DNA of 27,605 bases from a virus. The notes beneath the pieces are model-generated. The model was not told the origin of the DNA. It saw only the letters and a program-made list of their open reading frames with translations, and did not search any database. Every line of letters starts with the position of its first letter. The stretch's first letter is position 1. The stretch is from IMG/VR virus record IMGVR_UViG_3300014325_000036, positions 1 through 27,605 of that record; one strand, written 5' to 3'. Positions 3,578 through 26,190 of this stretch are shown piece after piece. The position numbers and the translations under genes are program-made.

Positions 3578-4014
3578 GATATGCAATCGATGCGGAGTTC
3601 ATTGATACGCCCACCTGCTCAGCGCTCATCAGTTTTGCGATCGTGCGAGAGGATGGAGCACACCGGTATTTCGAGTTCGACTATCCGGCGCACGAGATCA
3701 CGCCGTGGCTGCTTGAGAATGTACTGCCGCAGCTAGGTACATCACGGACCACCTTCTCACTGGCTGCTCACAGCATTCAAGGGTTCATCGGGAGCGATAG
3801 CCCTGAATTCTGGTGCTACTACGGCGCCTATGACTGGTACTGGTTCTGCCGTCTCTGGGGCGGCTTCATGAATATGCCCAAGGGCTGGCCGATCCTGTTC
3901 AAGGAGTTTGCCGAGATCAAGACGGGAATACTCAATGTTGCGGGGGAAGAGCATCACGCCCTGAACGATGCGCGCTCACTCATGGCAGCGATGATCGAAC
4001 ATGGCCGCGCGTAA
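3562..4014 (+). CDS. DEDDh 3'-5' exonuclease (RNase T/DnaQ-like)
   Basis: This 150-residue protein has the motifs of a compact DEDDh exonuclease, which uses two metal ions to remove 3' nucleotides. Exo I is IDAEF (D10, E12), Exo II is YYGAYDWYWF (D91) and Exo III is HHALNDARS (H131 or H132, D136). The length and the W/Y-rich Exo II region resemble phage and mycobacterial (Rv2179c-like) 3'-5' exoribonucleases more than polymerase proofreading subunits. No polymerase domain is present. The start overlaps TerL by 16 bases and the end overlaps the portal gene by 14, so it is expressed with the packaging machinery. Substrate (RNA or DNA) cannot be decided from sequence. Confidence 0.88.
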   Translation: MANRVRYAIDAEFIDTPTCSALISFAIVREDGAHRYFEFDYPAHEITPWLLENVLPQLGTSRTTFSLAAHSIQGFIGSDSPEFWCYYGAYDWYWFCRLWGGFMNMPKGWPILFKEFAEIKTGILNVAGEEHHALNDARSLMAAMIEHGRA

Positions 4015-6259
4015 GAAAGCCAAAAAGCTCGACGCCAGCAATCCGGATGTCGGCGCTTCGGGTGCCGGCGATGGCGACCCGATCGAAGGCGATCAGCAGC
4101 TCGCGCGCTTCGTCCACCAGTTCAATCTCTCGGCCGACACCACGCGGGATGCGCGCAAGCAGGCGCAGATCCACCGCGACTACTACGACGGCAAGCAGTG
4201 GTCGGACGATGAGGTCGAGATTCTGTGCAGACGCGGTCAGCCGGCCATTACCGACAACCGCATCAAGGACAAGATCGAGTATCTGCTAGGCCTGGAGCGA
4301 CAGACACGCACCGATCCGAAGGCGTTTCCCCGTACGCCCCAGGATGATCCCGGCGCGGATGCAGCGACAGATGCGCTGCGCTACGTTGCAGACTGCAGCA
4401 ACTTCTCACAGATCAAGTCAGCCGTCTTCGAGAATATGACGGTCGAGGGCTTCGGCGGTGCCGAGGTCATCGTGGATAACAATCAGACCTACGGCAAGAG
4501 CGGGAACAAGAAGGTCCACATCCGCTACATCCGCTGGGACCGGCTGTATTACGACGGCCACTCGCTGCTGCGTGATTTCAGTGATTCGCGCTATCAGGGC
4601 ATTGTCAAATGGATGGATCTGGACGAGGCGAAAGTCACCTATCCCAAGATCGGTAGCGCATTCGATCTCTTCACGAGCCAGAGCTTTACCCAGCCGACTG
4701 ACACGTACGATGATCGACCCCGCTGGTTTGACCGCGGCCGCAAGCGCGTGCAGATCCTCGAGCACTACTACAAGGAGGGCGATGGCTGGTACCGTGTGGT
4801 GTTCTCCCGAGTAGGAATCATCGAAGGCCCGCAGAAAAGCGTCTACATTGATGCGGAGACTGGTAAGCCCGAGTGCCCGCTGATCCTGCAATCCCTCTAC
4901 GTGGACCGCAACGGCAATCGCTATGGAGTGGTGAAACGCTACAAGGACCTGCAGGACGAGATCAACAAGCGCCGCTCCAAATCCCTCCATCTGCTCAGCG
5001 TCAACCAGGCGACCGCGGAGAAGGGCGCAGTCGATGATGTCGAGGCCGCCCGCAAGGAACTGGCACGTCCGGATGGCTTTCTCGAATACACCCCCGGGAT
5101 GAAGCTGGAGATCCGAGAGAACGCGGATCTCGCGGAAGGCCAGTTCAAGCTGTTGCAGGAAGCGATTGTGGCGCTCTCCGGCACGGGACCGAATGAGGCC
5201 CTGCTCGGTACAACAGGCGATCTGTCAGGTCGCGCCAAGCAGGTGGACCAGCAGGGCGGGGCGATTCAACTCGGGATCCTGACCGACTCCCTACGCTACT
5301 GGCAGAAACGCGTGATGACCGCGAGCTGGTCGCGCATCAAGCAGTTCTGGACCGGTGAGATGTGGGTACGGATCACGGACGATGAGAATTCGCGCTTCCT
5401 GGCACTGAATTCGACCTATCCGCCGAACCATCCGCACGTGCAGAAGGGCATGGCCCAGCCCGGTGCGCCGATGAACAACGTGGCCGAGATGGATGTCGAT
5501 ATCATCATCGATGAGTCGCCCGATGTGGTGACGGTCCAACAGGAGCAGTTCCAGCAACTCGTGGACCTCGCCAAGGGCGGCGTACCGATTCCGCCACAGG
5601 CCATCATTCAGGCGTCCAACCTGCGCAACAAGCAACAGGTACTGGATGCGATGAGCGGCAAGCTGCCGGACGGGACGGAGATCCCACCCCAGGTGCAACA
5701 GATGCTCCAGCAGAAGGAGCAGCAGATCCAGCAGATCACCCAGGCCCAGCAGCAGAAAGCCCAGGAGCAGATGCAGCAGGAGCAGCAATTGCAGCAACAG
5801 GTCGCCGAGGCCAAACTGCAGATGGTGCAGGTGAAGGCAGCGCAGGATCAGTTGAACGCCAAGCAGGCGGCTTTCGAGGCGCAGTTCGGCGCGCGTCAGC
5901 AGGAGCTGGAAGCGCAAATGGAAATGCTCAACGCCAAAGAGATCGAGCTCAAGGCGTTGCAGTTACTTGCCGCTCAGAAGCTCGAGGCCACGCAGAACGC
6001 GGCCAACGCGATCGTGGATGGGGCTTCGAAGGAAGCGACCATTACCGCTCTCACCTCCAAGCTGGAGACGCAGCAATCCACGCATGCCAAACAGGTCGCG
6101 GACCTCGGATTACAACATGCTCAGCAACTGCACGCCGAGCGTCAGAAGACGCAGGCCGCGAATGAGCCTGACGCGCAGCCCAAACCTGCCAAGCCGCGCA
6201 AGATCGCGGTCGAGCGCGATAGTACCGGTCGAATCACAGGCGCGACGGTGAACGGATGA
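4001..6259 (+). CDS. P22-type portal protein
   Basis: This 752-residue protein is the dodecameric portal through which DNA enters and leaves the head (P22 gp1 has 725 residues). Family-like features are an N-terminal helical part (RDARKQAQIHRDYYDGKQWSDDEV), RGQPAITDNRIKDKIEYLLGLERQ, and GPNEALLGTTGDLSGRAKQVDQQGG in the central wing and stem region. The last ~200 residues are very rich in Gln, Ala and Glu, from about residue 565 on, and should form the long coiled-coil barrel seen in P22. It starts 14 bases inside the exonuclease gene and ends in an ATGA overlap with the next gene. Confidence 0.95.
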   Translation: MAARKKAKKLDASNPDVGASGAGDGDPIEGDQQLARFVHQFNLSADTTRDARKQAQIHRDYYDGKQWSDDEVEILCRRGQPAITDNRIKDKIEYLLGLERQTRTDPKAFPRTPQDDPGADAATDALRYVADCSNFSQIKSAVFENMTVEGFGGAEVIVDNNQTYGKSGNKKVHIRYIRWDRLYYDGHSLLRDFSDSRYQGIVKWMDLDEAKVTYPKIGSAFDLFTSQSFTQPTDTYDDRPRWFDRGRKRVQILEHYYKEGDGWYRVVFSRVGIIEGPQKSVYIDAETGKPECPLILQSLYVDRNGNRYGVVKRYKDLQDEINKRRSKSLHLLSVNQATAEKGAVDDVEAARKELARPDGFLEYTPGMKLEIRENADLAEGQFKLLQEAIVALSGTGPNEALLGTTGDLSGRAKQVDQQGGAIQLGILTDSLRYWQKRVMTASWSRIKQFWTGEMWVRITDDENSRFLALNSTYPPNHPHVQKGMAQPGAPMNNVAEMDVDIIIDESPDVVTVQQEQFQQLVDLAKGGVPIPPQAIIQASNLRNKQQVLDAMSGKLPDGTEIPPQVQQMLQQKEQQIQQITQAQQQKAQEQMQQEQQLQQQVAEAKLQMVQVKAAQDQLNAKQAAFEAQFGARQQELEAQMEMLNAKEIELKALQLLAAQKLEATQNAANAIVDGASKEATITALTSKLETQQSTHAKQVADLGLQHAQQLHAERQKTQAANEPDAQPKPAKPRKIAVERDSTGRITGATVNG

Positions 6260-6465
6260 TCAACGTGGACTTCGGTGACGGTCAGATTGTGCCCTTCGAC
6301 GAACACAAGCTCGAAGGCCCGTATCGCTCCGTGACGGAAAACCCTCACGAGCGGACCGAGGTCGTGGAATACCGGCTCCTGGGCAAGGTGGTGCATCGCT
6401 CGGTGCATGTGACGTTGAAACAAGGCATCGGCATTGAAGGCGTTTTAGGTCGGATCGGAGGATAG
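6256..6465 (+). CDS. Small conserved-type phage protein, unknown
   Basis: This 69-residue protein is coupled to the portal gene by ATGA at 6256-6259 and ends in TAG at 6463-6465. It is soluble, with alternating strands (VEYRLLGKVVHRSVHVTL) and no cysteine or membrane segment. I know no family for it. GGAGGA, the ribosome site for the next gene, lies in its last codons. Tight coupling to the portal suggests a structural or assembly role, but nothing in the sequence proves it. Confidence 0.65.
   Translation: MINVDFGDGQIVPFDEHKLEGPYRSVTENPHERTEVVEYRLLGKVVHRSVHVTLKQGIGIEGVLGRIGG
6457..6462 (+). promoter_or_regulatory. Strong RBS that decides an ATC start
   Basis: GGAGGA lies seven bases before ATC at 6470-6472. 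No ATG, GTG, TTG or CTG occurs at a usable distance in that frame; the first are CTG 6512 and ATG 6515, both about 50 bases away and without a Shine-Dalgarno sequence. A near-perfect ribosome site with ideal spacing therefore points at ATC as the start codon of the next gene. Confidence 0.55.
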
Positions 6466-6469
6466 TCCC

Positions 6470-6940
6470 ATCGCTAACACACAGGCCCTCTGTGGCTCAT
6501 TCAAATCCGAGCTGATGCTCGGCGCGCACCAGTTGGGAAGCGTGACGATTGTCTCGCGTACCAGTCTGACCGCGCCCACTACGGATACCATCAAGGCCGC
6601 GCTCTATCTCGCCTCCGGTTCTCTCGGAGCCGGTACGACGGCCTATAGCGCGACGAGTGAGGTCTCGGGCACGGGGTATAGCGCAGGCGGCATCACCGTC
6701 ACGAACGCCACTGCGCCTTCCACGAGCGGCACGACGGGCATCTGGACGCCATCGGCTTCACTGCTCTATAGCACCGTCACCCTGACTACTGCATTCGACA
6801 CGGTGCTGATCTACAACAGCACGCAGTCCAACCGGGCGATCGGAGTCTATACCTTCGGCTCCCAGACGGTCACGGCCGGCAATTTCACCTTGACCATGCC
6901 CGTGAACGATGCGACCCACGCTCTAATACAACTTGCATGA
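6470..6940 (+). CDS. Virion-type structural protein with probable ATC start
   Basis: With the ATC start the product has 156 residues and begins (M)ANTQALCGSFKSELMLG. This N-terminus, a TQALC-SFK-EL pattern, resembles a phage structural family that normally starts M-A-x-TQAxC-SFK. Starting at ATG 6515 would remove this part and leave 141 residues without an RBS. The rest is rich in Thr, Ser, Ala and Gly with many beta strands (IKAALYLASGSLGAGTTAY, FDTVLIYNSTQSNRAIGVYTFGSQTVTAGNFTLTMP), as in tail or fibre-associated proteins. It probably acts in the virion. Function within the particle is unknown. Confidence 0.75.
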   Translation: MANTQALCGSFKSELMLGAHQLGSVTIVSRTSLTAPTTDTIKAALYLASGSLGAGTTAYSATSEVSGTGYSAGGITVTNATAPSTSGTTGIWTPSASLLYSTVTLTTAFDTVLIYNSTQSNRAIGVYTFGSQTVTAGNFTLTMPVNDATHALIQLA

Positions 6941-6949
6941 GGACACGCA

Positions 6950-7552
6950 ATGGCTAGTCAGAGCTGGGCACAGGAACTCGTCAATATCACCGCAGCTGGG
7001 ACGCTGTACAACACCTACACGACCGCCAAGTCGGTTCTCACCAGTTCAACCGCCACCGCCGCCTCTACGGGCCTCATCACGCTGCCGCCGAATTTCTTCC
7101 AGTTGGGCGGACGCCTCGAGATCGATATCGATGCCGGCATCAGCAACCGTGTCACAGGTCCCGATACATTTACCGTTCAGATCATGGTAGGCGCGGTCAT
7201 TGCCTTCACCACCGGGGCGATCAACCTCACGACCACGGCTCACACGACTATCCCGGCGCATGGCCGAATCATGCTCACCTGTCGGTCAGTGGGCAATGGA
7301 ACGCTTGCCACACTCATGGGGCAGTCCTACTGGAATGGCCAGATGATTGCGCAGGTCGCCTCAGCTGCGGACAACGCGGCGGGCACCGGTAATGCGATGG
7401 CGCCCAATACCGCGCCGGCGGTCGGAACGGGCTTTGATTCCACGGTCGCCAATACGCTCGACCTCTTCGTCGCGCAGTCCGTCAGCAACGCCGGAAACGG
7501 ATTCCAACTGCAGCAATACAGCGTCAAGAGCTGGGGGAACAGTGCCGCATGA
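6950..7552 (+). CDS. Virion-type structural protein
   Basis: This 200-residue, beta-rich protein starts at ATG 6950 with GAGGA six bases upstream. It contains long runs of Ala, Thr, Ser and Gly and strand-like blocks such as LGGRLEIDIDAGISNR, TFTVQIMVGAVIAFTTGAINLTT and HGRIMLTCRSVGNG. There is no signal peptide or enzymatic motif. The composition and jelly-roll-like strand pattern suggest a head-decoration, tail or fibre-base protein. It overlaps a 24-codon gene through ATGA at 7549-7552. The exact location in the particle cannot be stated. Confidence 0.75.
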   Translation: MASQSWAQELVNITAAGTLYNTYTTAKSVLTSSTATAASTGLITLPPNFFQLGGRLEIDIDAGISNRVTGPDTFTVQIMVGAVIAFTTGAINLTTTAHTTIPAHGRIMLTCRSVGNGTLATLMGQSYWNGQMIAQVASAADNAAGTGNAMAPNTAPAVGTGFDSTVANTLDLFVAQSVSNAGNGFQLQQYSVKSWGNSAA

Positions 7553-7623
7553 GCCATGAGCAACATCACTTCGCGGAAGCTCTAAAGAAAGCTTTCGAAG
7601 CCTTACGGAAGCTCGGGAAATGA
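7549..7623 (+). CDS. 24-residue helical micropeptide bridging two genes
   Basis: ATG 7549 overlaps the stop of the previous gene (ATGA), and its TGA at 7621-7623 overlaps the next ATG at 7620. The peptide begins MSHEQHHFAEALKKAFEALR and ends KLGK. It would form an amphipathic basic helix. The exact start-stop overlap on both sides suggests it is translated, if only to pass ribosomes to the next gene. No function is known. Confidence 0.45.
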   Translation: MSHEQHHFAEALKKAFEALRKLGK

Positions 7624-7997
7624 CGACCGTAAGCGTGCTCCCAACCGCGACCTATCCGGCGGGAATTCACAACTTCGGCCCGATTGCGGTCCCCACTGCG
7701 ATTGTCTCGATCGAGATCGATATCGCGCGTTGTACCACGGCCGATCTGACCATCTGGCCCAACGCGGGTGACACTATCGCGATGGATATGGAGCTGAGTA
7801 TGGATGGCGGGGTGACCTATTCATCCCTCGCCAGCAGTTTAGATGGCGGTGGGATCGAGGTGCGCACCAAGACGGGACTGGAGGTCCCCGCAACGATCGT
7901 GCAGACCGGTCTGACGGCTGGCACGAACCGTATGCTCAAGGGCTCTATCACGCTGTCGGCGGCCATCAAGACGAGCGCAACTGTCACGGTAACCTGA
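7620..7997 (+). CDS. Small beta-rich virion-type protein
   Basis: This 125-residue protein is coupled to the micropeptide gene by ATGA and ends one base before the next gene. It is almost wholly beta strand with Thr and Ile/Val alternation (IVSIEIDIARCTTADLTIWPN, MDMELSMDGGVTYSSLAS). The motif MELSMDGGVTY recalls Ig-like or carbohydrate-binding folds in phage tails, where a SxDGGxT turn is frequent. It probably belongs to the virion. No enzymatic motif is visible. Confidence 0.7.
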   Translation: MTTVSVLPTATYPAGIHNFGPIAVPTAIVSIEIDIARCTTADLTIWPNAGDTIAMDMELSMDGGVTYSSLASSLDGGGIEVRTKTGLEVPATIVQTGLTAGTNRMLKGSITLSAAIKTSATVTVT

Positions 7998-7998
7998 A

Positions 7999-9648
7999 AT
8001 GGCGATTGTCCGGGACGCGTCGAGTCCTACTACCTCGACCTCGGGCAACCTCACCAGTAACGGGACCAATAGCAGCGGGACATCAGCGTCCTTCACACCT
8101 CCAAGCGGCTCGTGGATCACGATCACCGCTTTCGTGGATTCGACCGGGGGTGCGCTCACCTGGAGCCCGACCACGACACTCGCCGGGGTGTCGTTCACGT
8201 CGATCGCGAACCAGGTCAATGCGAGCGGCGGTGGGGCGGTCGCCTATCGCGGGTTCGTAGCGAACTCGTCCACCGGTACGATCAGCCTCAGTGTCAACAA
8301 TGGGGGGATCAACGGACAGATCGATGGCGCCTTCTGGATAGATGTCTGGACCGGCGCGGCACAGAGCCAAACCGGAGCGGCATCGAATTCCGGCACGTCG
8401 ACCTCCGCGAATTTCAACGGGACGGTCACCACCACACTGACCGGCTCGCAAGTCGTCGGAATCGGCTGCGACGATGATGGCAGTAACACGCCCTCCAGCA
8501 CGGACACGTTCAACGAGGCGAACGCTGGATCACATGCGGACGGATTACGCGCCTACAAGGCGAGTAATTCGGGTGCACCGGGCACCGTTAACGTTAATTT
8601 CCAGGCCACCACGAGTCCGGTCTGGTCTTGGATTGTCTTCGAGATTCTGCCAGCGACCGCGTGGGCCTCGATCGCGAGTACCCCGCACCCGGGTAGAAGC
8701 CCGGGAATCGGTGGGGCACGGTTCTATCAGTCGCCGAAAGCGCTGAATGCGGCGGTCAGCAGCAACGTCACGGTAGCCCTGATCGGGCAGTCGGCGACGT
8801 TCACCGCCGGCACCCTGACGCCGAATACTGATACCGCGCTCGCGGGTCAGAGCAGTACCGGGACGGCCGGAACGCTGCTTCCCAGCCTCGCGAAGGCGCT
8901 ATCAGGTCAGACCGGCACCTTCACCGGTGGCACGGTGACGCCGGCCAGCGCGGTGGCACTGGCCGGCCAGACGGGCACGCTCAGCCCCGGCACGCTGACT
9001 CCCTCGCTGGCGACAGCACTGAGCGGTCAGTCCGCGACGGGCAGCACGGGTGTTCTGACGCCCAACATAGCCCTCGCGCTCAACGGACAGACAGCCACTT
9101 TCACGGCTGGACTGCTGGCGCCGAGTACGAATGCGGCGCTTAGCGGCCAATCGGGAACCTTCACCGCCGGGCTGCTGACACCGAGCACGGATACTGCCTT
9201 GAGCGGTATCAGCGCGCTTTCCAGCGCCGGCACTGTGACACCTTCCGCCGGTGGCGATGTCGTCATTGCCTTGACGGGCGTGACGGCGACTTTCACGGCG
9301 GGCGTGCTGACCCCGAGCGGGGCAGATATCACCGCTCTGCCAGGTCCGCTCGACTGGCCACCTGATCGCATCGCCGATACCGCATTCCGGCGCAAGAAGA
9401 AGCGTCGCCAGCGTGAGATCGAGCAGCCCGCGCAACCGGTCGACCCGATCCGGGTTGGGGCAATCGGTGCGATTCCGATTCCACCAGCCAAGACCTATGA
9501 CTTCCGCTCGCTCGCAGAGCTCTCCGGAAAGTCGGTTGAGGCCTTTCGCGCCGAGATCGATCAGGAGATTGCGCGGCTATTGGCCGAGCAGCAGGAGCGC
9601 GACGACGAGGAAGCGATCACGTTGATTCTGGCCGCTCTGGAGGACTGA
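7999..9648 (+). CDS. Repeat-containing fibre-like structural protein
   Basis: This is a 549-residue protein in three parts. Residues 1-220 are Ser/Thr/Gly-rich and beta-strand-like (SWITITAFVDSTGGALTW, GAFWIDVWTG, VWSWIVFEILPATA), resembling a lectin- or jelly-roll-type phage domain. Residues about 260-444 hold nine repeats of a ~20-residue unit close to ALSGQTGTFTAGTLTPSTDT. The C-terminus has a basic patch (RRKKKRRQR) and an acidic helical tail (EIARLLAEQQERDDEEAI). There is no signal peptide. Similar GQxATFxAGxLTP repeats occur in phage virion proteins, so a fibre or surface decoration is likely. Repeat number may vary between relatives. Confidence 0.75.
   Translation: MAIVRDASSPTTSTSGNLTSNGTNSSGTSASFTPPSGSWITITAFVDSTGGALTWSPTTTLAGVSFTSIANQVNASGGGAVAYRGFVANSSTGTISLSVNNGGINGQIDGAFWIDVWTGAAQSQTGAASNSGTSTSANFNGTVTTTLTGSQVVGIGCDDDGSNTPSSTDTFNEANAGSHADGLRAYKASNSGAPGTVNVNFQATTSPVWSWIVFEILPATAWASIASTPHPGRSPGIGGARFYQSPKALNAAVSSNVTVALIGQSATFTAGTLTPNTDTALAGQSSTGTAGTLLPSLAKALSGQTGTFTGGTVTPASAVALAGQTGTLSPGTLTPSLATALSGQSATGSTGVLTPNIALALNGQTATFTAGLLAPSTNAALSGQSGTFTAGLLTPSTDTALSGISALSSAGTVTPSAGGDVVIALTGVTATFTAGVLTPSGADITALPGPLDWPPDRIADTAFRRKKKRRQREIEQPAQPVDPIRVGAIGAIPIPPAKTYDFRSLAELSGKSVEAFRAEIDQEIARLLAEQQERDDEEAITLILAALED
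8776..9330 (+). repeat. Nine in-frame ~60-bp coding repeats
   Basis: The nine units encode AL-x-GQ-x-x-TFTAG-x-LTPS-type sequence. Seven are exactly 20 codons, the eighth has 24 and the ninth 21. The eighth (GISALSSAG) and ninth (GVTATFTAG) lose the GQ pair. Nucleotide identity between units is imperfect, so they are diverged rather than recently copied. Such arrays may still expand or contract by recombination. Confidence 0.85.
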
Positions 9649-12593: not shown

Positions 12594-12792
12594 TGAGCTG
12601 TACGACGACATCATCAGCGCCATGGTCGCAGCTTTGCTCGTAGATGATTTCATACTGCCGGAGCCCAAGCGCACCAAGATTGCTCAGGAGGGCATCCTGG
12701 GGCTTCCCGCCGCCAGCCCCGCTGAACGACGGTTGCGCAAGGTTCTAGCTCCCATGCGCGTCAGCAAGCCGGTGAGAGCCGAGTATTTCTGA
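12418..12792 (+). CDS. Tail adaptor (P22 gp4-like position)
   Basis: This 124-residue helical protein starts at GTG 12418, or GTG 12424 two codons later, behind GGGAGG at 12408-12413. Helices such as FALMKERVARKLGVLA, LIAERCLSLQKQLEALEI and ELYDDIISAMVAALLVDDF resemble gp4/gp6-type ring adaptors that extend the portal. Its place before a gp10-like gene matches P22 gp4 (166 residues). I see no lysozyme-like motif, although P22 gp4 has muralytic activity. The stop shares a base with the next ATG (TGATG). Confidence 0.75.
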   Translation: MSVSFALMKERVARKLGVLAVGNSLSAEDGDLIAERCLSLQKQLEALEIVTLDFEAGIDELYDDIISAMVAALLVDDFILPEPKRTKIAQEGILGLPAASPAERRLRKVLAPMRVSKPVRAEYF

Positions 12793-14162
12793 TGCCGCAG
12801 ATTCCCTTTGGCGCGCAGAGTTATCAGCACATCTCGCGTCCCCTATCGGCTCAGCGCATGGTGAATGCTTACCTTGAGTCCGCACCGCCGGCTGCGAAAA
12901 CTCCTGCCGCCGTCGTCTGTTGTTTCGGCATCAAGGACTATCTGACAGTGGGCACGGGCCCGATGCGCGGCGGTCTGCGCGTCAATCAGATGGTCTATGT
13001 CGTTTCGGGGGCCAAACTCTATCGAATCTATTCGGGTGGTGGTGTTACAGAGTTGGGGTCTGTCCCTGGCTTCGGTCCCGTCTTCATGGACAGCGATGGG
13101 AGCCAGGTCCTGATTACGGTCAATGGGCCGTCCTATCTCTATGATGGCGCGACCGTTACGCCGATGGCGGATCCTGACTTCCCAGGTGCCGAATGGACGA
13201 CGTTTCTGGATGGTTATGCGATCATCGGCCCCGGTGATGGACGGGTCTACGTCAATCACACCCCGTTTGATTTCTCGGCCTGGGACGCATTGGATTTCGC
13301 CTCAGCGGAAGCCTCTCCCGATGATGTGGTGGTGGGAATCACTGATCACCGCGAAGTATTCCTGTTTGGCCGCGACAGCACGGAAGTCTGGTATGACTCA
13401 GGAGATGCCGCATTCCCCCTGACCCGCACGGCCTCGGGCTACATGGAGATTGGCTGCACGTCCAAGTATGGACCGGCGAAGATCGACAACTCCATTTTCT
13501 TTCCTGCCAATGATGGCACGATCCGGCGCATCAACGGCTATACGCCGGTGCGCGTCTCAACAACTGCCATTGAACAGGCGATTACGAAGTTTGCCTCGCA
13601 GGAATGCATGGGGATGGCCTGGATCGAGAACGGCCACTCCATGTATGGACTCACCTACGCGGAAGGAACGTTCGTTTACGACATCTCCACGCAGTTGTGG
13701 CACGAGCGCCAGAGCTATCTCCAGAAGAACTGGCGCTCAGCCTTTGTGATCCGCGGCGACAATGTCACCTTGGTGGGAGATCGGCTGTCAAACCGCTTGG
13801 GCATTCTGTCTCCAGACAGTTTTACTGAGTGGGATCAGCCGCTGATCTCGAGTGTGACCGCTCCGGCAATTGCCCAAGGGAATAATCCGATCTGGCACAG
13901 CTCGCTGGAACTCGTGTTCGACAATGGCGTAGGGCTTACGACGGGGCAGGGCTCCAGTCCCGAGGTCATGCTGAATTGGAGCGATGACGGCGGCCGGACC
14001 TTCGGGGTAGAGTTGCGGCGCCCACTCGGAAAGGCCGGTGATTTCCAGCGTGTTGCCCGTTGGAACCGACTTGGAGCCTCGCTGGACCGCGTTTACCGAT
14101 ATTCCATCTCTGATCCGGTACGGCGCACCCTAATCCAGGCGTTGTGGAACGATGCCACTTAG
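12792..14162 (+). CDS. Packaged-DNA stabilisation / tail hub protein, P22 gp10-like
   Basis: This 456-residue protein is close to P22 gp10 (472 residues), which forms a ring under gp4 and closes the head after packaging. The N-terminus QIPFGAQSYQHISRPLSAQRMVNAYLESAPP is typical. A propeller-like series of strands follows (VYVVSGAKLYRIYSGGGVTELGSV, QVLITVNGPSYLYDG, FLDGYAIIGPGDGRVYVN, REVFLFGRDSTEVWYDSGDAAFPL, SIFFPANDGTIRRINGYTPVRVST), as in the gp10 beta-propeller family. The C-terminus LNWSDDGGRTFG... RWNRLGASLDRVYRYSISDPV is also family-like. The start shares one base with the adaptor stop. The end overlaps the next gene by 11 bases. Confidence 0.93.
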   Translation: MPQIPFGAQSYQHISRPLSAQRMVNAYLESAPPAAKTPAAVVCCFGIKDYLTVGTGPMRGGLRVNQMVYVVSGAKLYRIYSGGGVTELGSVPGFGPVFMDSDGSQVLITVNGPSYLYDGATVTPMADPDFPGAEWTTFLDGYAIIGPGDGRVYVNHTPFDFSAWDALDFASAEASPDDVVVGITDHREVFLFGRDSTEVWYDSGDAAFPLTRTASGYMEIGCTSKYGPAKIDNSIFFPANDGTIRRINGYTPVRVSTTAIEQAITKFASQECMGMAWIENGHSMYGLTYAEGTFVYDISTQLWHERQSYLQKNWRSAFVIRGDNVTLVGDRLSNRLGILSPDSFTEWDQPLISSVTAPAIAQGNNPIWHSSLELVFDNGVGLTTGQGSSPEVMLNWSDDGGRTFGVELRRPLGKAGDFQRVARWNRLGASLDRVYRYSISDPVRRTLIQALWNDAT

Positions 14163-14877
14163 AGCTCCACAGGTCTTTCCCAATGATCAGCGCAGTTGGG
14201 ATCAATGGACCAGGAACGTTCAGGTCAAGCCCGATGACAATTCGGTCACCACGATCACAATTGCGCCCAAAGCAGTTACTGATGAGAAATTTAGGGACAG
14301 CGCGCCCACGAGTGTCATTGGACGAAACGTCGATTCTCCTGGAGAGCCTGCGGATATTGTAGCGGGTGCCGACGATCGTTTTCTGGTGCGCCGCAGTGGG
14401 GCATTGGCCTTTGGGACCATAGGCGATAGTGATATTCCAGGTTCCATTGCTCGGGATACGGAAGTTACTGCCGGGGACGCGGCCGTCACGACGGCGTTTC
14501 AGACTGCCGATAGCGTAGTCGCGGCCAATGCCGCCAGCGCCCTCGCGGCGCATGTGGCAGCCGCAGATCCACATCCCGTCTATCTGACGCAGACCGAAGG
14601 GGACGCGCGATATGCCCAACTTTCGACGGTCCTGCAGGGCTCCGCGACCTATGACCCGCCTTCGCTGGCCGATGGCGCTGGAATAACCACGACAGTGACC
14701 TGTACTGGAGCAGCCCTGGGCGGTTTTGCCCGCGCCTCATTCTCGCTCGACCTCCAAGGAATTACCCTGACAGCCGATGTCTCGGCGACAAACACGGTCG
14801 CGGTGCGATTTCAAAATGAGTCAGGTGGAACACTCGATTTGGCTTCCGGAACCTTGAAGGTACGCGTCGACCCATGA
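14152..14877 (+). CDS. Tail needle or fibre at the P22 gp26 position
   Basis: This 241-residue protein occupies the place of P22 gp26, the trimeric tail needle (233 residues). The N-terminal part (PLRAPQVFPNDQRSWDQWTRNVQV) could be the attachment tip. A helical Ala-rich middle (AFQTADSVVAANAASALAAHVAA) and then PHPVYLTQTEGDARYAQ follow; the latter is a tail-fibre repeat-like motif. The C-terminus is beta-rich. These features fit an elongated trimer plugging the tail. Sequence similarity to gp26 itself is not evident by eye, so a short fibre is an alternative. It overlaps gp10-like by 11 bases and the following gene by ATGA. Confidence 0.65.
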   Translation: MPLRAPQVFPNDQRSWDQWTRNVQVKPDDNSVTTITIAPKAVTDEKFRDSAPTSVIGRNVDSPGEPADIVAGADDRFLVRRSGALAFGTIGDSDIPGSIARDTEVTAGDAAVTTAFQTADSVVAANAASALAAHVAAADPHPVYLTQTEGDARYAQLSTVLQGSATYDPPSLADGAGITTTVTCTGAALGGFARASFSLDLQGITLTADVSATNTVAVRFQNESGGTLDLASGTLKVRVDP

Positions 14878-15140
14878 CCGAATTCGAAATGGCGATCATC
14901 GCCGAACTGAAGAAACTCAACGCGAACATGGAGAAGCTGCTGTGCTTTCAGAAGCTCGCAGCCCAACACTATGCTGACAAGTATCGTGCCGCAATGGGAT
15001 CAGCTCCCTCAGCATCTCACCTGGAACGAGAAACTGGCGTATCTCACGCATCAGTTCCTGACTATGGAGCAAACGGGATGTCCACTGAAGCATCGCTTCG
15101 AGAAGGGCCTCTACATCCGAGAAATCGAGATTCCGGCTGA
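14874..15140 (+). CDS. Small coiled-coil protein overlapping the cupin-SET gene
   Basis: ATG 14874 overlaps the previous stop (ATGA). The first ~45 residues (MTEFEMAIIAELKKLNANME, then LLCFQKLAAQHYADKYRAAM) form a convincing amphipathic helix or coiled coil. From about residue 33 the gene lies inside the next gene's frame, and the C-terminal half looks disordered and less constrained. The predicted length is 88 residues. The coupling supports translation, but the real functional part may be only the N-terminal helix. It has no known family; it lies where P22 has gp14. Confidence 0.5.
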   Translation: MTEFEMAIIAELKKLNANMEKLLCFQKLAAQHYADKYRAAMGSAPSASHLERETGVSHASVPDYGANGMSTEASLREGPLHPRNRDSG

Positions 15141-15792
15141 GACGGTCATCATTGGCCGCATTCATCGGCATGGACATGTCTGTCAGCTTCTGAAAGGCGA
15201 TCTCGTGCTGATCCACCGGGGAGGGACACGGGAAGGCTTTCGCGCTCCCTCGCAGATCATGACAGAACCCGGCTATCAGATGGTGGTCTACGCCGTCACC
15301 GACGTGGTCGCGCAGACGGTGCATCCGAATCCCACGGAAGAGCGCGATATCGCGAAGCTGGAGGCCGATATTTTCGAGTCCCAAGAGGATTTGCTGCGGC
15401 TTGGCGAGCAGGTCAAAGAGCGCGTCCTATATGGGCGAATGTTAGTAGATCATGGCATCGATGAGGCCGCACTCCGTCCTCTCATTGAGGATGAATCAGA
15501 CCAGATTCCATTCCCTGGTGAATATCCTGTTCGGGTCGGACCTTCTTCGATTCAAGGACTCGGCCTCTTGGCCACAAAATCCATTGCCGCAGGAAGCCGG
15601 ATCGCACCTGTCCGTATCGGGGGCAAAAGGACTCCTGCGGGACGCTATGCCAATCATGGATCTGCCCCCAATGCGCAAATGAAACGAGCGGAAGGCGGCA
15701 CCATTGAACTGGTTTCTCTCAAGGAAATCCCCGCAGGCGCTGAAATTCTGGTGGATTATCGACACGCTTTCCAAGTGGGAAGACAATCATGA
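14971..15792 (+). CDS. Cupin-SET domain fusion protein (putative lysine methyltransferase)
   Basis: This 273-residue protein combines two domains. Residues about 40-135 form a cupin-like barrel: HRFEKGLYIREIEIPAETVIIG, an H-x-H-x-H cluster at H65/H67/H69, LLKGDLVLI, APSQIMTEPGYQMVVYAVTDV and H118, followed by TEERDIAKLEADIF. This matches a cupin-like protein seen in phage virion operons. Residues about 185-265 resemble a compact SET domain, which transfers methyl from S-adenosylmethionine to lysine: SSIQGLGLLATKSIAAGSRIAP, RYANHGSAPNA at 225-235 (the RxxNHSCxPN motif) and GAEILVDYR at 256-264. The domain is short and the usual Cys of motif III is replaced by Ala. The start at 14971 has no strong RBS; ATG 15064 is a weaker alternative. 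The target could be a virion protein. Confidence 0.85.
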   Translation: MLTSIVPQWDQLPQHLTWNEKLAYLTHQFLTMEQTGCPLKHRFEKGLYIREIEIPAETVIIGRIHRHGHVCQLLKGDLVLIHRGGTREGFRAPSQIMTEPGYQMVVYAVTDVVAQTVHPNPTEERDIAKLEADIFESQEDLLRLGEQVKERVLYGRMLVDHGIDEAALRPLIEDESDQIPFPGEYPVRVGPSSIQGLGLLATKSIAAGSRIAPVRIGGKRTPAGRYANHGSAPNAQMKRAEGGTIELVSLKEIPAGAEILVDYRHAFQVGRQS

Positions 15793-16499
15793 GTAGCGTC
15801 GCTGTAGCCGTTGGAGCCGCGGCGGTTATCGGGGCCGGGGCTGCTGTCTACTCAGCTAATAAGCAAGCGGGCGCAGTCAGGTCAGCCGCGAATTCCTCGA
15901 TTGCCGAGCAGAACGCTGAATACAACCAGACGCGTGCCGATCAGGCCCCCTGGCGCACCACGGGTGCCAGCGCATTGGATCAGATCGCCAAGCTCTATGG
16001 CCTGGATACGGTCGATGCCAACGGAAACACAATCAAGGGGAGTGGCAAAGCCGACTTCTCCGGATTTACTACTGCCCCAGACTACACTTTTGCTCAACAG
16101 CAGGGGCAGGATGCGATCAATCGCTCTGCAGCTGCGCGCGGAGGATTGCTCTCCGGGGCTGCCGTCAAAGCGGGGGAGACATATGCCTCGGGTCTTGCCT
16201 CGCAGAACTTCCAGAACTATGTGGGTAACCTGGAAGGCGTTGCGGGTTCAGGGCAAGCAGCAACGAATGCCACGCAGGCGGCCGGTACCAACATGGCAAA
16301 TCAGAACAGTGCCGCCATCATGGGTGCGGGTAATGCGCGCGCCTCCGCTTATGGAAGCATCGGCTCGACGATCGGCAACACGGCGAATGGTCTGGCGAGC
16401 AATTATCTGCTCTACAAATATCTCAACCCGGGGACGGCTACGGCGATCGCGCCCAACACCAGCGGCTTTGGTCCGGCAAGTGGCGGAGTATACGGCTGA
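15789..16499 (+). CDS. DNA transfer/ejection protein, P22 gp7-like position
   Basis: This 236-residue protein (P22 gp7: 229) begins with a hydrophobic, small-residue helix (VAVAVGAAAVIGAGAAVYSANKQ) that may insert in membranes. An Ala/Gln/Asn-rich helical body follows. The block YTFAQQQGQDAINRSAAARGGLLSGAAVKAGETYASGLASQNFQNY is typical of phage DNA-transfer proteins (the p32-like group). It ends in a Gly-rich tail. Such proteins are packed in the capsid and ejected first to build a channel across the cell envelope. It overlaps the SET gene by ATGA and the next gene by TGATG. Confidence 0.85.
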   Translation: MSSVAVAVGAAAVIGAGAAVYSANKQAGAVRSAANSSIAEQNAEYNQTRADQAPWRTTGASALDQIAKLYGLDTVDANGNTIKGSGKADFSGFTTAPDYTFAQQQGQDAINRSAAARGGLLSGAAVKAGETYASGLASQNFQNYVGNLEGVAGSGQAATNATQAAGTNMANQNSAAIMGAGNARASAYGSIGSTIGNTANGLASNYLLYKYLNPGTATAIAPNTSGFGPASGGVYG

Positions 16500-17932
16500 T
16501 GGCATACGAACCCATCAATCTCGGCGACATCTATGCTCAGGCGCAGAGCATCAAGGCCATGCAGCAGAAAGGGCAGCTCGGAGCCCTGCAGCTACAGGAA
16601 GCGCAGAAAGCGCAGGGCGACCAAGCAGGTATCGATCAGGCATTGCAGGCCAATCCCAACGCCTCGCTATCCGATCTCATCAAGGCCGGTGGCGGCATGG
16701 CAGGCGTGCAGGCCTCCACTCAGATCGGCGCTGCGCGTACGGCCGATCTGACCAACCATTACCGGCAAACGTACATTGCCGCTACACAGGTGGCGAATTC
16801 GGACAATCCGTTGGCCACGATACAACAGGTCGCGCCCGATTTTCCGAAGCAATTTGATTCCGTTCACGGTCCGGGGGCATGGGAGAAGTTCTCCCAAGAT
16901 CCCAATATGGTGAAGCAGCAGGCTGCCCAAGTCGCCCAGGATGCTCTGTCTGGACTGGTCGACCCTGACAAGCAGTTCCAAGCTCACCAGACAATGATCG
17001 AGAATCATTACAAGCAGGAAGGGCCCGGCGGCGAACTCGCACGCAACCAGAACACGATCGCGGCCGAGAATGCTCGGCAGCAGGCAACGCAGGCGGCCGA
17101 AGATCGCCGGGCCGCAGCGGCTCGTGGTGTCACCATGCGCGGTCAGGACCTCGAAGCCCAGGCGCGTGGCATTCCGGCCGGCTATGAGCGCGACCCCAAC
17201 AACCCAGGCGCATTACGACCGATTGTCGGTGGTCCGCACGACCCGAACGCAACCTCTGCCGGCATGGACTCTCGCAGCTCGGTGATGTTCAACCGCGTCG
17301 CGGCATCTGCCAATGAGGCAGTCACGGCACTGCGGAACATTGCCGAGCTCCCCGCCGGCACGAGCACCGGCTGGTTCGGGAGTTCACAACCGGGACATAG
17401 CCTCATGGACTCCGTGAAGGGCGTGCTGACCCAGAAAGTCACGAGCCAGGAAGCCCAGGACTACAAGACCATGATTGCGGGCGTCTCGCGCTCGCTCTCC
17501 ACGATCGAAACCGCGGGCCTGGCGCCCAATGGCTCGATCACGCATTCGATGGATAGCATCACGCTCAACGAGGGTGATTCGCAGCTCACGAAATTACGCA
17601 AACTCGCCGAGACACGGCAGATCATCGAGAAGGGCATCGAGCCAAATCTCTCGAATCCGAAATTGGCGCCAGCCCAACGCGACCTGATTACCCGGATCAT
17701 TTCCGACGTGCAGACCGCGATTCCCTTCACGCAGCACGACATCACGCAGTTGCAGCAGTCGAAGAATCCGAACGCGACGTTGCTCGACTTCGCGCGCAAG
17801 ACAGGACTGCCCACGACCGCAGGCGCCACTTCCCAGGCTCCTGTCAAAATTCAATCGGATGCGGACTACGCGAAACTGCCCTCCGGAGCGCAGTACACGG
17901 CCCCTGACGGGACGCTGCGGACGAAGCGATGA
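16499..17932 (+). CDS. Internal virion/ejection protein, P22 gp20-like position
   Basis: This 477-residue protein (P22 gp20: 471) is mostly helical, with high Gln and Ala content. The N-terminus AYEPINLGDIYAQAQSIKAMQQK and a middle coiled region (ELARNQNTIAAENARQQATQAAEDRRAAAARG) support an elongated internal virion protein. The C-terminal half contains regular helices (DLITRIISDVQTAIPFTQHDI). No enzyme motif is visible. It probably travels with its neighbours into the host during DNA entry. It is joined to the next gene by ATGA at 17929-17932. Function is assigned by size and place, since these proteins diverge strongly. Confidence 0.8.
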   Translation: MAYEPINLGDIYAQAQSIKAMQQKGQLGALQLQEAQKAQGDQAGIDQALQANPNASLSDLIKAGGGMAGVQASTQIGAARTADLTNHYRQTYIAATQVANSDNPLATIQQVAPDFPKQFDSVHGPGAWEKFSQDPNMVKQQAAQVAQDALSGLVDPDKQFQAHQTMIENHYKQEGPGGELARNQNTIAAENARQQATQAAEDRRAAAARGVTMRGQDLEAQARGIPAGYERDPNNPGALRPIVGGPHDPNATSAGMDSRSSVMFNRVAASANEAVTALRNIAELPAGTSTGWFGSSQPGHSLMDSVKGVLTQKVTSQEAQDYKTMIAGVSRSLSTIETAGLAPNGSITHSMDSITLNEGDSQLTKLRKLAETRQIIEKGIEPNLSNPKLAPAQRDLITRIISDVQTAIPFTQHDITQLQQSKNPNATLLDFARKTGLPTTAGATSQAPVKIQSDADYAKLPSGAQYTAPDGTLRTKR

Positions 17933-20202
17933 GTTGGCAGGATGATCCAATAATCCCTTCTGCAGCGTCTGCATGGCAATCTGATCCAATCGTCAATGAT
18001 TCGACGCCGTCGACTCAGACGGAAAGCCCTTCAGTCTTGCACGAGTTAGGACGCACGGCAGCTATGCAGACAGGTGAGTTCGTTAAAGGAGCGGCGTCGC
18101 TTCTGGCATTGCCTACGGATACTATCGTGCGATTGATAAATTTGGGAGCTGGGCGTCGGGTAATGACACCCGCTGCAGAAACGATCGCTGCGGGCATTGA
18201 TTCCATTACCCCGCAGCCGCGTAATGCTACGGAGCGCGTTACGAATGCGATTGTCCGCAATTTAGGTGGTGCCACAACTGGAATCGGCGTCGGTAATGCG
18301 ATTACGGGTGTAGTCGGTTCTGCTTTAGCGGCCAATCCGGGCCAACAATTGGCCGCGAGTGTCACCGGCGCCGGAGCACAACAAATCGCAGCCGAGAAGG
18401 GCGCGGGACCAATAGGGCAGACTGTTGCGGGGGTGGCCGGCGCGTTGGCGCCGAGCGTTGGATCGGCAGCGTTGAGTGGGATAGCTCGCGGGGCTGTTCG
18501 CGGTGGCGAAGCCGGACGTCAGGCGATGGCGGATAATATTCAGGCATTCCAGGCAGCAGGCACCACATCCACAGTCGGACAGGCGACTCAAGGTCGAATC
18601 GCACAGGCTACGGAGGCACTCTTATCCAAGACCCCAGGCGCGGCCGGTCGGATGGTGAGCACGGCTCAGCAGCAAGCGGACCAGATCGGCGCGAAGATCG
18701 GGCAGATCGCCGATAACCTCGCACCCCAGGCCAGTGGCGAACAGGCTGGTCGTGCGGTGACCAAGGGCATATCTGGGGAAGGTGGTTTCATCGACCAGTT
18801 CAAGGCCAAACAGCAGCAGCTATATGACCACCTTGATCAGCACATTTCTCAAACCGCGCCGGTCGACGTGTCTAACGCGCAAGCCGCTCTCGCCAAACTG
18901 AATGCTTCGATTCCGGGTGCGCCGAATATCTCGAAATTCTTCAAGAACGCCAAGATCAGTGGCATCAATGATGCGCTTCAGGCGGACCTGAATACTCCGC
19001 CGCCGGCCGCAGATGACCTAGCTAAAACTCTCTCAAAGCTGGATGCGTTACGGAACTCCCGGAACCTCGCCTCCCAAGAGGCCGGAAAATTCGCCGCTCA
19101 GGCGAATGACGAGATTGGACGGGCTAACGATTTCGTTCCAGTACCGGGCCAGCCCAGGATCCCAGGCCGCTATTCGCCTTTCCCCGCGCGCGCGGCAGAT
19201 GCGGCTGCCGCTGCGCAGGATGCTACTCAGATCGCTCAGTCAAAGATTCCGCAGATCAATTCGACCAAAGCGCAGATCGATCAACTCCAGCAGATCGTCG
19301 ATGAATCCAATGGGAAACTGCCTTATCAAGCGGTGAAGCAACTTCGGACGCTCGTTGGTGATCAACTCTCTGACTGGACCATGACGAGCGATGTACCCCG
19401 TAGTAAGTGGAAAGCACTTTACGGGGCCTTGAGTTCGGACCTAGAAGGCGCGGCGCAGGCTGCCGGGCCGGATGCGACAGCAGCATGGCAACGCGCCAAC
19501 AACTACACCCGAGCCGGCATGCAACGTCTGGACATGCTGAGTTCTGTTATCGACAAGAATGGAGGGCCTGAGGCGGTCTACAAAGCCGTCACCTCAGGCA
19601 CACGAGAGGGCGCCACAACTCTGCGAGCCGTCATGCAAAGTCTGCCCGAGGAAGCGCAAAAGACTCTCTCAGCGACCGTCCTGCGGCGTCTGGGAAGCGC
19701 CAAGGCCGGCGTGCAGGATGATACGGGTGGAGTTTTCAGCACCGAGACATTCCTGACTAACTGGAACACGATGTCTCCGCAGGCCAAAGCGGCGTTGTTC
19801 GATCGATATGGACCTGCGTTTCGGCAGAACATGGATCAGATCGCGAAGGTCGCTTCCAACCTGCGCGACGGTTCTAGCGTGTTCAAGAATCCGTCAGGTA
19901 CAGGGCAGGCCATGGCGCAGATCGGCGCTTTTGGAGCCTTTACCGGCGCGTTATTCAGCCACAATCTTCCGGTCGCGGGCGGTATCGCCGGTTCCGTGGC
20001 GACGTCTAACCTCATAGCACGTCTGATGACCAACCCTAATGCGGTGAAATGGCTCGCTACAACAACGAAAGCGCCTTTGAGCGCTGCTCCGGCTCTACTG
20101 AATCGCGCGGCGCAGTCCAATGATCCCGACTTAAAAGAGTTCGCCCTACAGGTACGAGCAGAGCAGGGCAATCAACCCGATCAGCAGGGCAACGGGAAAT
20201 AA
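17929..20202 (+). CDS. Large ejection protein, P22 gp16-like position
   Basis: This 757-residue protein closes the ejection trio (P22 gp16 has 609 residues). It begins MSWQDDPIIPSAASAWQSDP, a tryptophan-Asp-pro repeat common at the start of phage internal virion proteins. Several small-residue hydrophobic stretches (ITGVVGSALAANPGQQLAASVTG, VAGVAGALAPSVGSAALSGIARG and, near the C-terminus, IGAFGAFTGALFSHNLPVAGGIAGSVA) could pass into membranes. Long helices lie between. No lytic transglycosylase motif is seen. Its last 57 bases overlap a candidate antisense gene. After it the late operon has a 163-base gap before the tailspike. Confidence 0.82.
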   Translation: MSWQDDPIIPSAASAWQSDPIVNDSTPSTQTESPSVLHELGRTAAMQTGEFVKGAASLLALPTDTIVRLINLGAGRRVMTPAAETIAAGIDSITPQPRNATERVTNAIVRNLGGATTGIGVGNAITGVVGSALAANPGQQLAASVTGAGAQQIAAEKGAGPIGQTVAGVAGALAPSVGSAALSGIARGAVRGGEAGRQAMADNIQAFQAAGTTSTVGQATQGRIAQATEALLSKTPGAAGRMVSTAQQQADQIGAKIGQIADNLAPQASGEQAGRAVTKGISGEGGFIDQFKAKQQQLYDHLDQHISQTAPVDVSNAQAALAKLNASIPGAPNISKFFKNAKISGINDALQADLNTPPPAADDLAKTLSKLDALRNSRNLASQEAGKFAAQANDEIGRANDFVPVPGQPRIPGRYSPFPARAADAAAAAQDATQIAQSKIPQINSTKAQIDQLQQIVDESNGKLPYQAVKQLRTLVGDQLSDWTMTSDVPRSKWKALYGALSSDLEGAAQAAGPDATAAWQRANNYTRAGMQRLDMLSSVIDKNGGPEAVYKAVTSGTREGATTLRAVMQSLPEEAQKTLSATVLRRLGSAKAGVQDDTGGVFSTETFLTNWNTMSPQAKAALFDRYGPAFRQNMDQIAKVASNLRDGSSVFKNPSGTGQAMAQIGAFGAFTGALFSHNLPVAGGIAGSVATSNLIARLMTNPNAVKWLATTTKAPLSAAPALLNRAAQSNDPDLKEFALQVRAEQGNQPDQQGNGK

Positions 20203-20365: not shown

Positions 20366-22303
20366 ATGGCAATTTTGTTTTCGCCGCCGCGATTCAAGGC
20401 AACGGATAAGAGCAATGCTCCCATCTCCGGAGCGTTCCTGCAATTCTTCCAGTACCAGACCTCGACGTTACAGCCGATCTACACCGACAGCACGCTGCAA
20501 ATTCCGCTGCTCAATCCGCTCAAGGCCGATGCGAACGGCCTGTTCCCGGAGATTTGGCTCGATGATTCACTTCCCCCGTATAAGGTCATTTTCGCATCTC
20601 CCGACACGAACGATCCCACCCTTCCCGGTACCGTCATCTGGTCCATACAACAATACAATTCGACATTCTCCGTTGACGTATTGATTCCGCTACTCAATCC
20701 CCGCACTGCCGCCGAGATCTCCGCCGGGGTGATACCCACGAACTACGCCTATGCACCGGGTATCGTGGACCGCTACGGCACGAATACGACACCCGGCACG
20801 ACAGACATGTCGACTGCCGTGAGGCAGGCTCTGGATTCAGTACCGTTTACCGGCGGGATAATCCAATTCCTGCCGAATGCGACCTATATGATCGGGTCTG
20901 TTGTGTATATCCCGCAGCGTCGAAATGCCACCACAGGTGTCGGCGGAATCATCATCGAGGGCAATAATTGCATCCTCACCGGTACGGGACTCGGCTCAGG
21001 TAGCACAGGAAACGGGAATTTCAGCTCCGGGGCTGCGATGTTCGAGACCGGTACGGGTGTTTACAGCACGGTAGCCAAAGGGGGGGCCACCAATTTTGGC
21101 CTGGGGAATGAGCTGGCCACCACTCTCCACGACCATGATGTCATCCGCAATGTCAACTTCATCAACTTCGGCCTGGCCTTGCACCTATTCAACTTCGTGT
21201 TGGGCTGTAAGCTGGAGAATCTCTATTTTTCCACCGGCTACACTGCGGTCTCAGATGCCCGTTGTTTCTACTCAGTATGGGACAATGTATGCACCTCGTT
21301 TCAACAGTCCGGAGCGGGCAGCGCGACCTATGCAAGTTTCGCACTCGCCGATAACATCAATGACCGGACCTTTCTCGGCTGTCGGGCCATCGGCGCGATT
21401 CCCAGCGGAGGCGCCTCGATTGGCTGGCAGGTATCGAATGGAGTCCAAGGGTGCGCCTGGATCGGCTGCTCAGCGGAGCAATGCGGCACAGGATTTCTGA
21501 ATCTCGGCTCTATTCTGGGCGCCACCTGGGCAGGTGGCTACTTCGAGACCAACAGCGTTGCTGCCATGAACCTGGGTGGGGTGGGCGCCGGCAACGTCGT
21601 CATGAATATAGATGCCAATGATTTTATTAGCACCGCCGGAAATCAGCCCATCTCCATCACGGCAAATTCATGGGTAGGCGGTCGGCTGGGGCGGTCTAAT
21701 AATTTCAGTGGATTCGACGCCAGTAATAATACCGTGGTCCTGACAGCTGCATCGAATGCCGTCACAGTAGAGATTCCGGTGCAGGGATTTACGGAATCGC
21801 AAAGTACGGCAACTGCAATCAGAATTCCCGCCGGCTATCAATTGGGCGGTGGAGTGCAGATCGACGGGCGCCGGGTAGTTTACGTATCTTCGGTGGGTGG
21901 TCAGTCAGAATTGATTTCCGAACGGATCACCAACACAGGCACCCCTGATTTCGCCTACAGCGGGGGCCCGGTGCAGGAGGCGTTTGAGACGGGATACTGG
22001 CTGCCTTTCTGTACGCAGACCAATACTTCAGGAAACTCGGCGCTTCTGACTCAGATCACCTGGTCTACTGAGAGAATGGTAGTGGTCTTTGATCTCTTCG
22101 GGACCATTACGGCGGGCGGCTCAGGCACTGTGCAGCTCTCTGGGATCATTTTCGCAGGAGGGGCGTGGGTGATACGGGGCGACACCAACGCCACCTATAC
22201 TGTTGGCGGTATCAACAATAGCGGAAAACTCCAGGTCGGTATCAGCGGCTCCGGCATGTCTGGCAAAACGATTTCCTGGCAGGGACAGATCCGCCACGTA
22301 TGA
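20366..22303 (+). CDS. Tailspike with P22-like head-binding domain
   Basis: This 645-residue protein (P22 gp9: 667) is the trimeric receptor-binding spike. Residues 1-110 match the head-binding domain pattern: FSPPRFKATDKSNAPISGAFLQFFQYQTSTLQPIYTD, NPLKADANGLFPEIWLDDSLPPYKVIF. From about 130, VDRYGTNTTPGTTDMSTAVRQALDSVPFTGGIIQFLPNATYMIG is a pectate-lyase-like beta-helix entry, followed by strand repeats (IIIEGNNCILTGTG, VIRNVNFINFGLALHLFNFVLGCKLENLYF). The C-terminus is a separate beta-rich trimerisation or binding part. Asp and Glu residues in the helix could cleave surface polysaccharide, but a catalytic set cannot be picked by eye. AAGGTGA precedes the ATG. Host range is expected to depend on it. 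Confidence 0.92.
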   Translation: MAILFSPPRFKATDKSNAPISGAFLQFFQYQTSTLQPIYTDSTLQIPLLNPLKADANGLFPEIWLDDSLPPYKVIFASPDTNDPTLPGTVIWSIQQYNSTFSVDVLIPLLNPRTAAEISAGVIPTNYAYAPGIVDRYGTNTTPGTTDMSTAVRQALDSVPFTGGIIQFLPNATYMIGSVVYIPQRRNATTGVGGIIIEGNNCILTGTGLGSGSTGNGNFSSGAAMFETGTGVYSTVAKGGATNFGLGNELATTLHDHDVIRNVNFINFGLALHLFNFVLGCKLENLYFSTGYTAVSDARCFYSVWDNVCTSFQQSGAGSATYASFALADNINDRTFLGCRAIGAIPSGGASIGWQVSNGVQGCAWIGCSAEQCGTGFLNLGSILGATWAGGYFETNSVAAMNLGGVGAGNVVMNIDANDFISTAGNQPISITANSWVGGRLGRSNNFSGFDASNNTVVLTAASNAVTVEIPVQGFTESQSTATAIRIPAGYQLGGGVQIDGRRVVYVSSVGGQSELISERITNTGTPDFAYSGGPVQEAFETGYWLPFCTQTNTSGNSALLTQITWSTERMVVVFDLFGTITAGGSGTVQLSGIIFAGGAWVIRGDTNATYTVGGINNSGKLQVGISGSGMSGKTISWQGQIRHV

Positions 22304-25529: not shown

Positions 25530-25718
25530 TCAGGAAATCCTATGGAGTGAGGCCGGACGCAGTTTCCGGCACGTCGGGACGGCCCCGATATCCCCTTTAC
25601 CATGAGTCTCCACCCCGGGATGCATGGATGCGTTACTTCCATACCACTCACTCTGTAGGATCTCCTGATAGTTGGACTCAAGCTCGTTTCTTCGCTCGTT
25701 TGAGGCGCTGATACTCAC
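25530..25718 (-). CDS. Possible 62-residue protein
   Basis: GTG 25718-25716 opens a frame on the minus strand that overlaps the end of the HNH gene by 41 bases and stops at TGA 25532-25530. The product begins MSISASNERRNELESNYQEI and includes EWYGSNASMHPGVETHGKGD. The first half looks like a helical protein and the second half is less convincing. There is no clear RBS at the GTG. ATG 25625, 31 codons inside, is another possible start. It fills what would otherwise be a 166-base gap between two leftward genes. Reality is uncertain. Confidence 0.35.
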   Translation of the reverse strand: MSISASNERRNELESNYQEILQSEWYGSNASMHPGVETHGKGDIGAVPTCRKLRPASLHRIS

Positions 25719-26190
25719 GTCGCCACGCGACGTAACTCGGGTTCTTGTTCTTCAACCGATCGCACTCTCGGCAACGCCGCTTGTTCGGCGTGGCTGGACT
25801 GCGGTAGGTGTTCTCGGGCGTGAACTCATGGCCGCTCTTGCAATGCGTCTGATGCTGCCGCGACCAGATCATCTTCCTAGCCGCGTCCTGCATATTGGCC
25901 TTGGCTGTGTCCGCCCACAAGTGCTCCGGATTGCAGCAGTGCTTCACATCGCACGTATGGCAGACATCCAGGCCTTCTGGGATTGGACCCTTCCAGAGGA
26001 CGTAGGCCAACCGGTGTACGCGGGTATTCACGCCGCGGTACGACATATCCCCGTAGGAATTCGGCGGTTTATGCACGAAGCCTTGATAGAGCCAGCAACC
26101 AGTGAATGGTTCAATACGACACTTGGCCTTGAGCCGCGCCCTATATTCGTCGTCCGTCACCGATTCGGACCAACGCCCTCTACCTCTCAC
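25678..26190 (-). CDS. Second HNH endonuclease with one zinc knuckle
   Basis: This 170-residue protein is related in plan to the HNH protein at 649-1341. It has GCWLYQGFVH...YGDMSYRG near 31-53, an HNH core VCHTCDVKHCCNPEHLW at 76-92 (H78, N87, H90; C80, C85, C86), then one zinc module with C117/H121 and C140/C143 (CKSGHEFTPENT, CREC). A basic C-terminal helix (RREYQRLKRAKKRA) follows. It starts at GTG 26190-26188 behind GGAGG and overlaps the preceding minus gene by 11 bases. It is probably a homing-type or DNA-processing nuclease. It is shorter than the first copy, having only one knuckle. Confidence 0.9.
   Translation of the reverse strand: MRGRGRWSESVTDDEYRARLKAKCRIEPFTGCWLYQGFVHKPPNSYGDMSYRGVNTRVHRLAYVLWKGPIPEGLDVCHTCDVKHCCNPEHLWADTAKANMQDAARKMIWSRQHQTHCKSGHEFTPENTYRSPATPNKRRCRECDRLKNKNPSYVAWRREYQRLKRAKKRA

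Follow-up and report, generated by a model that had tools for sequence, protein, structure and literature searches.

A cupin-SET fusion in a phage virion operon predicts a lysine methyltransferase at the P22 gp14 position

SET enzymes, compact viral SET domains and standalone phage SET proteins in databases (phrog_28741) are already known. The vSET protein of PBCV-1 (A612L; 1n3j, 3kma) is a standalone polypeptide of 119 amino acids without pre- or post-SET zinc clusters. The phage SET domain described here shares this compact organization, but has fewer residues and is joined to a phage cupin. Its top match in both fold and sequence is the SET domain of KMT2/MLL, from which it differs by the absence of the SET-I insert and of the post-SET and by belonging to a phage protein. 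Cyanophage P-SSM7 codes for a compact SET of 99 amino acids (phrog_28741; positions 2980-3279 of locus L108) whose motif RTPLGGFxNHSxxPN bears the shared RTPxG..NHS signature and whose PF00856 score is 42 bits. This protein, however, stands alone without a cupin amid metabolic genes (nrdAB, talC) of a T4-like phage. The proteins of phrog_12032, phrog_24280 and PHA00672 have the same cupin domain, likewise located ahead of an ejection gene, but end after the cupin and carry no SET. The protein studied here belongs to phrog_34170, a family that is unnamed and has no assigned function. Phage-encoded protein lysine methylation is almost unexplored, and open-access PMC text yielded no description of a SET or cupin protein from phage virions and none of the cupin-SET fusion and its operon place. 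The widespread phage cupin-SET architecture within the virion operon is new.

The window is a stretch of viral DNA of 27,605 nucleotides. Its cupin-SET gene is an intact open reading frame of the plus strand that starts at an ATG at position 14971, stops at 15792 and codes for 273 amino acids. All the neighbors listed here lie on the same strand. Upstream are the head closure gene Hc3 (P22 gp10-like; 12792-14162; phrog_578, 9e-100), a gene coding for 241 amino acids at the position of P22 gene 26 (14152-14877; weak matches to tail or unknown PHROGs) and a small gene (14874-15140). The cupin-SET stop overlaps the start of the next gene as ATGA at 15789-15792. That gene encodes a gp7-like DNA ejection protein (15789-16499; phrog_598, 2.7e-36) and is followed by the ejection protein genes at the gp20 position (16499-17932; assigned by position only, with no PHROG match) and at the gp16 position (17929-20202; assigned by position, with a match to phrog_36512 of unknown function). 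The order Hc3, 241-amino acid protein, small gene, cupin-SET and gp7-like compares with 10-26-14-7-20-16 in P22. The original prediction had assigned the protein to the P22 gp14 place, which holds for its position between genes 26 and 7 but not for sequence similarity. The hhalign probability is 0.2%, and no homology to gp14 was detected. The arrangement is common in relatives: a gp7-like gene comes next in 206 of 234 SET-bearing loci and in 24 of 30 SET-free loci, and Hc3 lies upstream in 66 of the 78 SET loci with room for it.

The small gene codes for 88 amino acids and shares ~170 bases with the start of the cupin-SET gene, read in a different frame. In ten relatives the first ~35 residues (AELKKLNANMEKLLCFQKLAAQHYADKYR) are conserved and the frame stays open across the overlap; it is possibly a true overlapping gene.

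The cupin-SET protein is composed of a cupin or RmlC-like jelly roll (residues 34-129; 15070-15357), a helical linker (residues 139-173; 15385-15489) delimited by DSSP on the structural model and by alignments, which show it to be present in SET proteins whether fused or split, and a compact SET domain (residues 181-268; 15511-15774). Phrog_34170 matches the whole protein (1.6e-45), residues 28-268 aligning with positions 26-280 of 296. The SET assignment relies on Pfam, on a profile comparison with the PDB and on the fold model. PF00856 scores 32.5 bits (1.2e-07) against a Pfam gathering cut-off of 22.4 and is matched by all 36 full-length SET-bearing relatives in the alignment (E <= 0.01). 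In the PDB, a profile of the SET module finds MLL/KMT2 (8e-10), vSET (1n3j, 2e-06), EZH2, SETD8 and further SET enzymes. The AlphaFold2 model, built from a MAFFT alignment of 41 sequences from the window and IMG/VR, has a pLDDT of 93.1, and Foldseek with this model retrieves many cupins and also SET chains. In VIA-align comparisons residues 181-264 superpose on the MLL1 SET (7u5v_A) with a Z of 12.2 and 1.5 A over 79 residues, and residues 184-263 on vSET with a Z of 10.8 and 2.1 A over 80 residues. Both segments expected to form the SET knot fall within the aligned range 181-264. The core spans ~84 residues versus ~123 aligned in MLL1 and has no SET-I insert, such that the linker, the cupin, a partner or the substrate itself would have to supply the rest of the substrate groove. 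The fusion of the two domains within the virion operon, as originally predicted, is thus borne out by Pfam, PHROG, the fold model and gene order, both domains matching their respective folds in the model.

The residues expected for cofactor binding and catalysis are strictly kept. A first scan used a motif inside the SET domain, which makes the conservation seen there partly a product of the search, and two independent DNA baits were then used, the first located in the cupin and the second at the carboxyl terminus of SET. The cupin-bait set was made non-redundant at 90% and its SET carriers were picked by an HMM that does not demand the residues in question. There, S192 and the GxG of the cofactor loop (G196, G198; 15556-15564) are found in 64/64 relatives. 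The cofactor-binding N228 and H229 of RTPAGRYxNHxxxPNA (residues 220-235; 15628-15675) occur in 62/62, and E258 and Y263 of EILVDY (15742-15759), the latter at the position of the catalytic tyrosine, in 60/60. The dN/dS ratio has a median of 0.079 in SET and of 0.063 in the cupin, revealing strong purifying selection on both. Chance resemblance or an artefact, refuted by this ratio together with the Pfam score, the IMG/VR relatives, the fold matches and the PDB profile, has a negligible probability, and nothing was found in its favor.

The same data bear on whether the SET fold has been retained for structure or for SAM binding, with no transfer of methyl groups. Its very small size without SET-I, its association to a structural-type domain and the fact that it can be missing would suit such a role. 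Reuse as a scaffold is, however, expected to let the tyrosine drift, while the cofactor and catalytic positions, tyrosine included, are invariant in the bait-independent samples. This invariance and the strong purifying selection make structural reuse, which the original prediction had envisaged, improbable. The prediction had also doubted activity for the missing motif III cysteine. The NHSC cysteine serves the post-SET zinc site and is absent from SET7/9 and vSET, which lack that site, so its loss says little about activity; the standalone P-SSM7 SET does not have it either. From its sequence the SET domain is thus quite probably an active SAM-dependent catalyst, and its intact motifs and the selection acting on it support the prediction of a likely lysine methyltransferase.

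The amino-terminal part of the protein matches phrog_12032, annotated as 'short tail fiber protein' (4e-26), and phrog_24280, 'tail fiber adhesin'. In keeping with a double-stranded beta-helix barrel, residues 35-121 of the model superpose on the cupin HP0902 (5j4g) with a Z of 12.1 and 2.3 A over 86 residues, and many further cupins match with a Z of 11. Across 156 cupin relatives R50, G76 and G101 are invariant and the only kept histidines are H41 (97%) and H69 (92%). The cluster H65/H67/H69/H118, pointed out earlier, is lineage-specific and not a conserved metal site: H65 is present in 52% of these cupins and is otherwise Q, H67 in 20% and H118, mostly replaced by Y, in 19%. A metal-binding cupin enzyme was considered and rejected, the conserved site of three His and one Glu not being found in the 156 relatives. 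Because the His cluster is lineage-specific, the cupin is unlikely to be a metal enzyme and more likely to be an adapter or to have a structural role; most likely it is an adapter for assembly or for the tail, with no catalysis of its own.

The PHROG names, along with the patchy presence of SET, could also point to a tip of the tail for host recognition, in which the amino-terminal domain is an adhesin and SET a variable receptor-binding head exchanged like the tips of tail fibers. The part that should vary is nevertheless conserved at its active site instead of diversified. No experiment was found behind the adhesin name, which in VvAW1 corresponds to a hypothetical phage protein (PHA00672), and the window has a separate spike-like gene at 20366-22303. 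A receptor-binding head is thus a very improbable reading of the SET domain.

The SET domain is an optional addition to the cupin. In relative L013 the neighboring genes are mostly 84-95% identical to those of the window (scaffold 90%, Hc3 91%, cupin 95%, gp7-like 95%), but a block of ~400 bp coding for SET is absent and the protein stops after the cupin. Since close relatives such as L013 and L014 have no SET, the modification it might carry out is dispensable, and these near-identical natural phage pairs with and without SET make its role directly testable. A cupin without SET at the same place also implies that the cupin serves a function of its own at that location, to which SET was added. 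Vibrio phage VPMS1 is one cupin-only relative. With the cupin bait SET is found on 77 of 94 closed ORFs, a share (82%) that does not give the family-wide frequency as the bait favors FGPG-type cupins. In a tree of 149 cupins, a quick tree from a short alignment that does not distinguish gain from loss, SET presence switches 14 times, at least six of them forced by well-supported branches.

Seen from the SET side the association is tight, 151 of 155 ORFs with a SET of the cupin-SET kind having it on a cupin. Among the four exceptions two run off the contig (L267 and L272), and L156, which looks frame-broken, has the cupin in an overlapping ORF. In the fourth, L229, SET and cupin are coded by separate neighboring genes, in this order. 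The opposite order, cupin then SET, is found in the Paraburkholderia prophage-like locus L106, where each of the two separate neighbors matches its half of phrog_34170. As the split genes adjoin in L106 and L229, the tie between the domains is not mere accidental read-through, and adjacency in both orders is strong evidence for a functional link between SET and cupin. The two L106 genes (6239-8624) lie directly after a DnaB-like helicase gene with an integrase nearby, and no virion gene was recognized in the ORF list of this locus. In L104 a SET gene follows replication genes, with no cupin nearby.

A profile scan of IMG/VR identified 238 stretches that encode relatives of the cupin-SET protein. 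Full-length relatives were found by tblastn in Rhodoferax phage P26218 (gp30, YP_009222580.1), Pseudoalteromonas phage PH1, phage zth2-2 and Manatee Spring phages, one being annotated 'pbcV-1 histone H3-lys 27 methyltransferase structure', and BFVD contains a relative of 263 amino acids named 'SET domain containing protein'. Automatic annotation has therefore already picked up the SET identity. The relatives have neither an assigned function nor proteomics in the papers on phages P26218 and VvAW1 and on Shewanella phage X14. The plasmid search gave no SET-module relative, and 84,980 species genomes have only six SET-module loci, of which several resemble phages or prophages. The family is widespread in phages, with hundreds of contigs and cultured Rhodoferax and Pseudoalteromonas phages, and couples an apparently intact predicted methyltransferase to the tail and ejection operon.

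These data suggest that the many short-tailed phages with this gene place a chemical mark on a protein while particles assemble or during infection. The reading for which the case is about evenly balanced is that of a bifunctional protein, a SAM-dependent lysine methyltransferase brought by the cupin to the tail and ejection apparatus and acting on a virion target. The cupin would take the gp14 place beside the ejection genes as an adapter and carry SET, a putative SAM-dependent protein lysine methyltransferase, as a plug-in. It would deliver this domain to the site where the tail and the ejection complex assemble, and lysines of an ejection or tail protein would be methylated in the infected cell before phage release. 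Overall, the proposal that the substrate is a virion protein falls slightly short of an even case. Several observations weigh against this explanation: the SET genes of L104 and L106 follow replication genes, close relatives do without SET, and the small SET core is devoid of SET-I, the element that gives the substrate groove its shape. In addition, when the lysines of the gp7-like ejection protein were scanned, none that is widely conserved proved to be enriched with SET; the best-conserved one occurs in roughly one third of the phages with SET, and the significant columns are mostly clade effects or depleted with SET.

The intact active site also suits an active lysine methyltransferase directed at a host protein, either cytoplasmic in late infection or, after ejection of the enzyme with the DNA, cytoplasmic or in the envelope. 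Optional presence and repeated switching are in line with a host-dependent benefit, and the viral SET known best, that of PBCV-1, has a host protein as its substrate. The constant location amid late virion genes and the constant association with the cupin are, however, more simply explained by a virion target, and a host target is considered rather unlikely. Returning to the virion target, a more general proposal, advanced tentatively, is that short-tailed phages may have a built-in lysine methylation coupled to assembly of the DNA ejection machine through an optional domain on the cupin at the gp14 position.

The window has other genes of interest, and an Rfam search of its sequence returned nothing. 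A protein of 549 amino acids (7999-9648, plus strand) contains about ten repeats of ~20 residues of the type ALSGQTGTFTGGTLTPS and has no Pfam match. An HNH endonuclease (649-1341, plus strand; HNH_3, phrog_826), possibly a homing endonuclease, is encoded amid structural genes, and a second HNH-like ORF (CHTCDVKHCCNPEHL) is found on the opposite strand at 25678-26190. Between the terminase and portal genes lies a gene (3562-4014, plus strand) that resembles those of RNase H or Rv2179c-like 3'-5' exonucleases.
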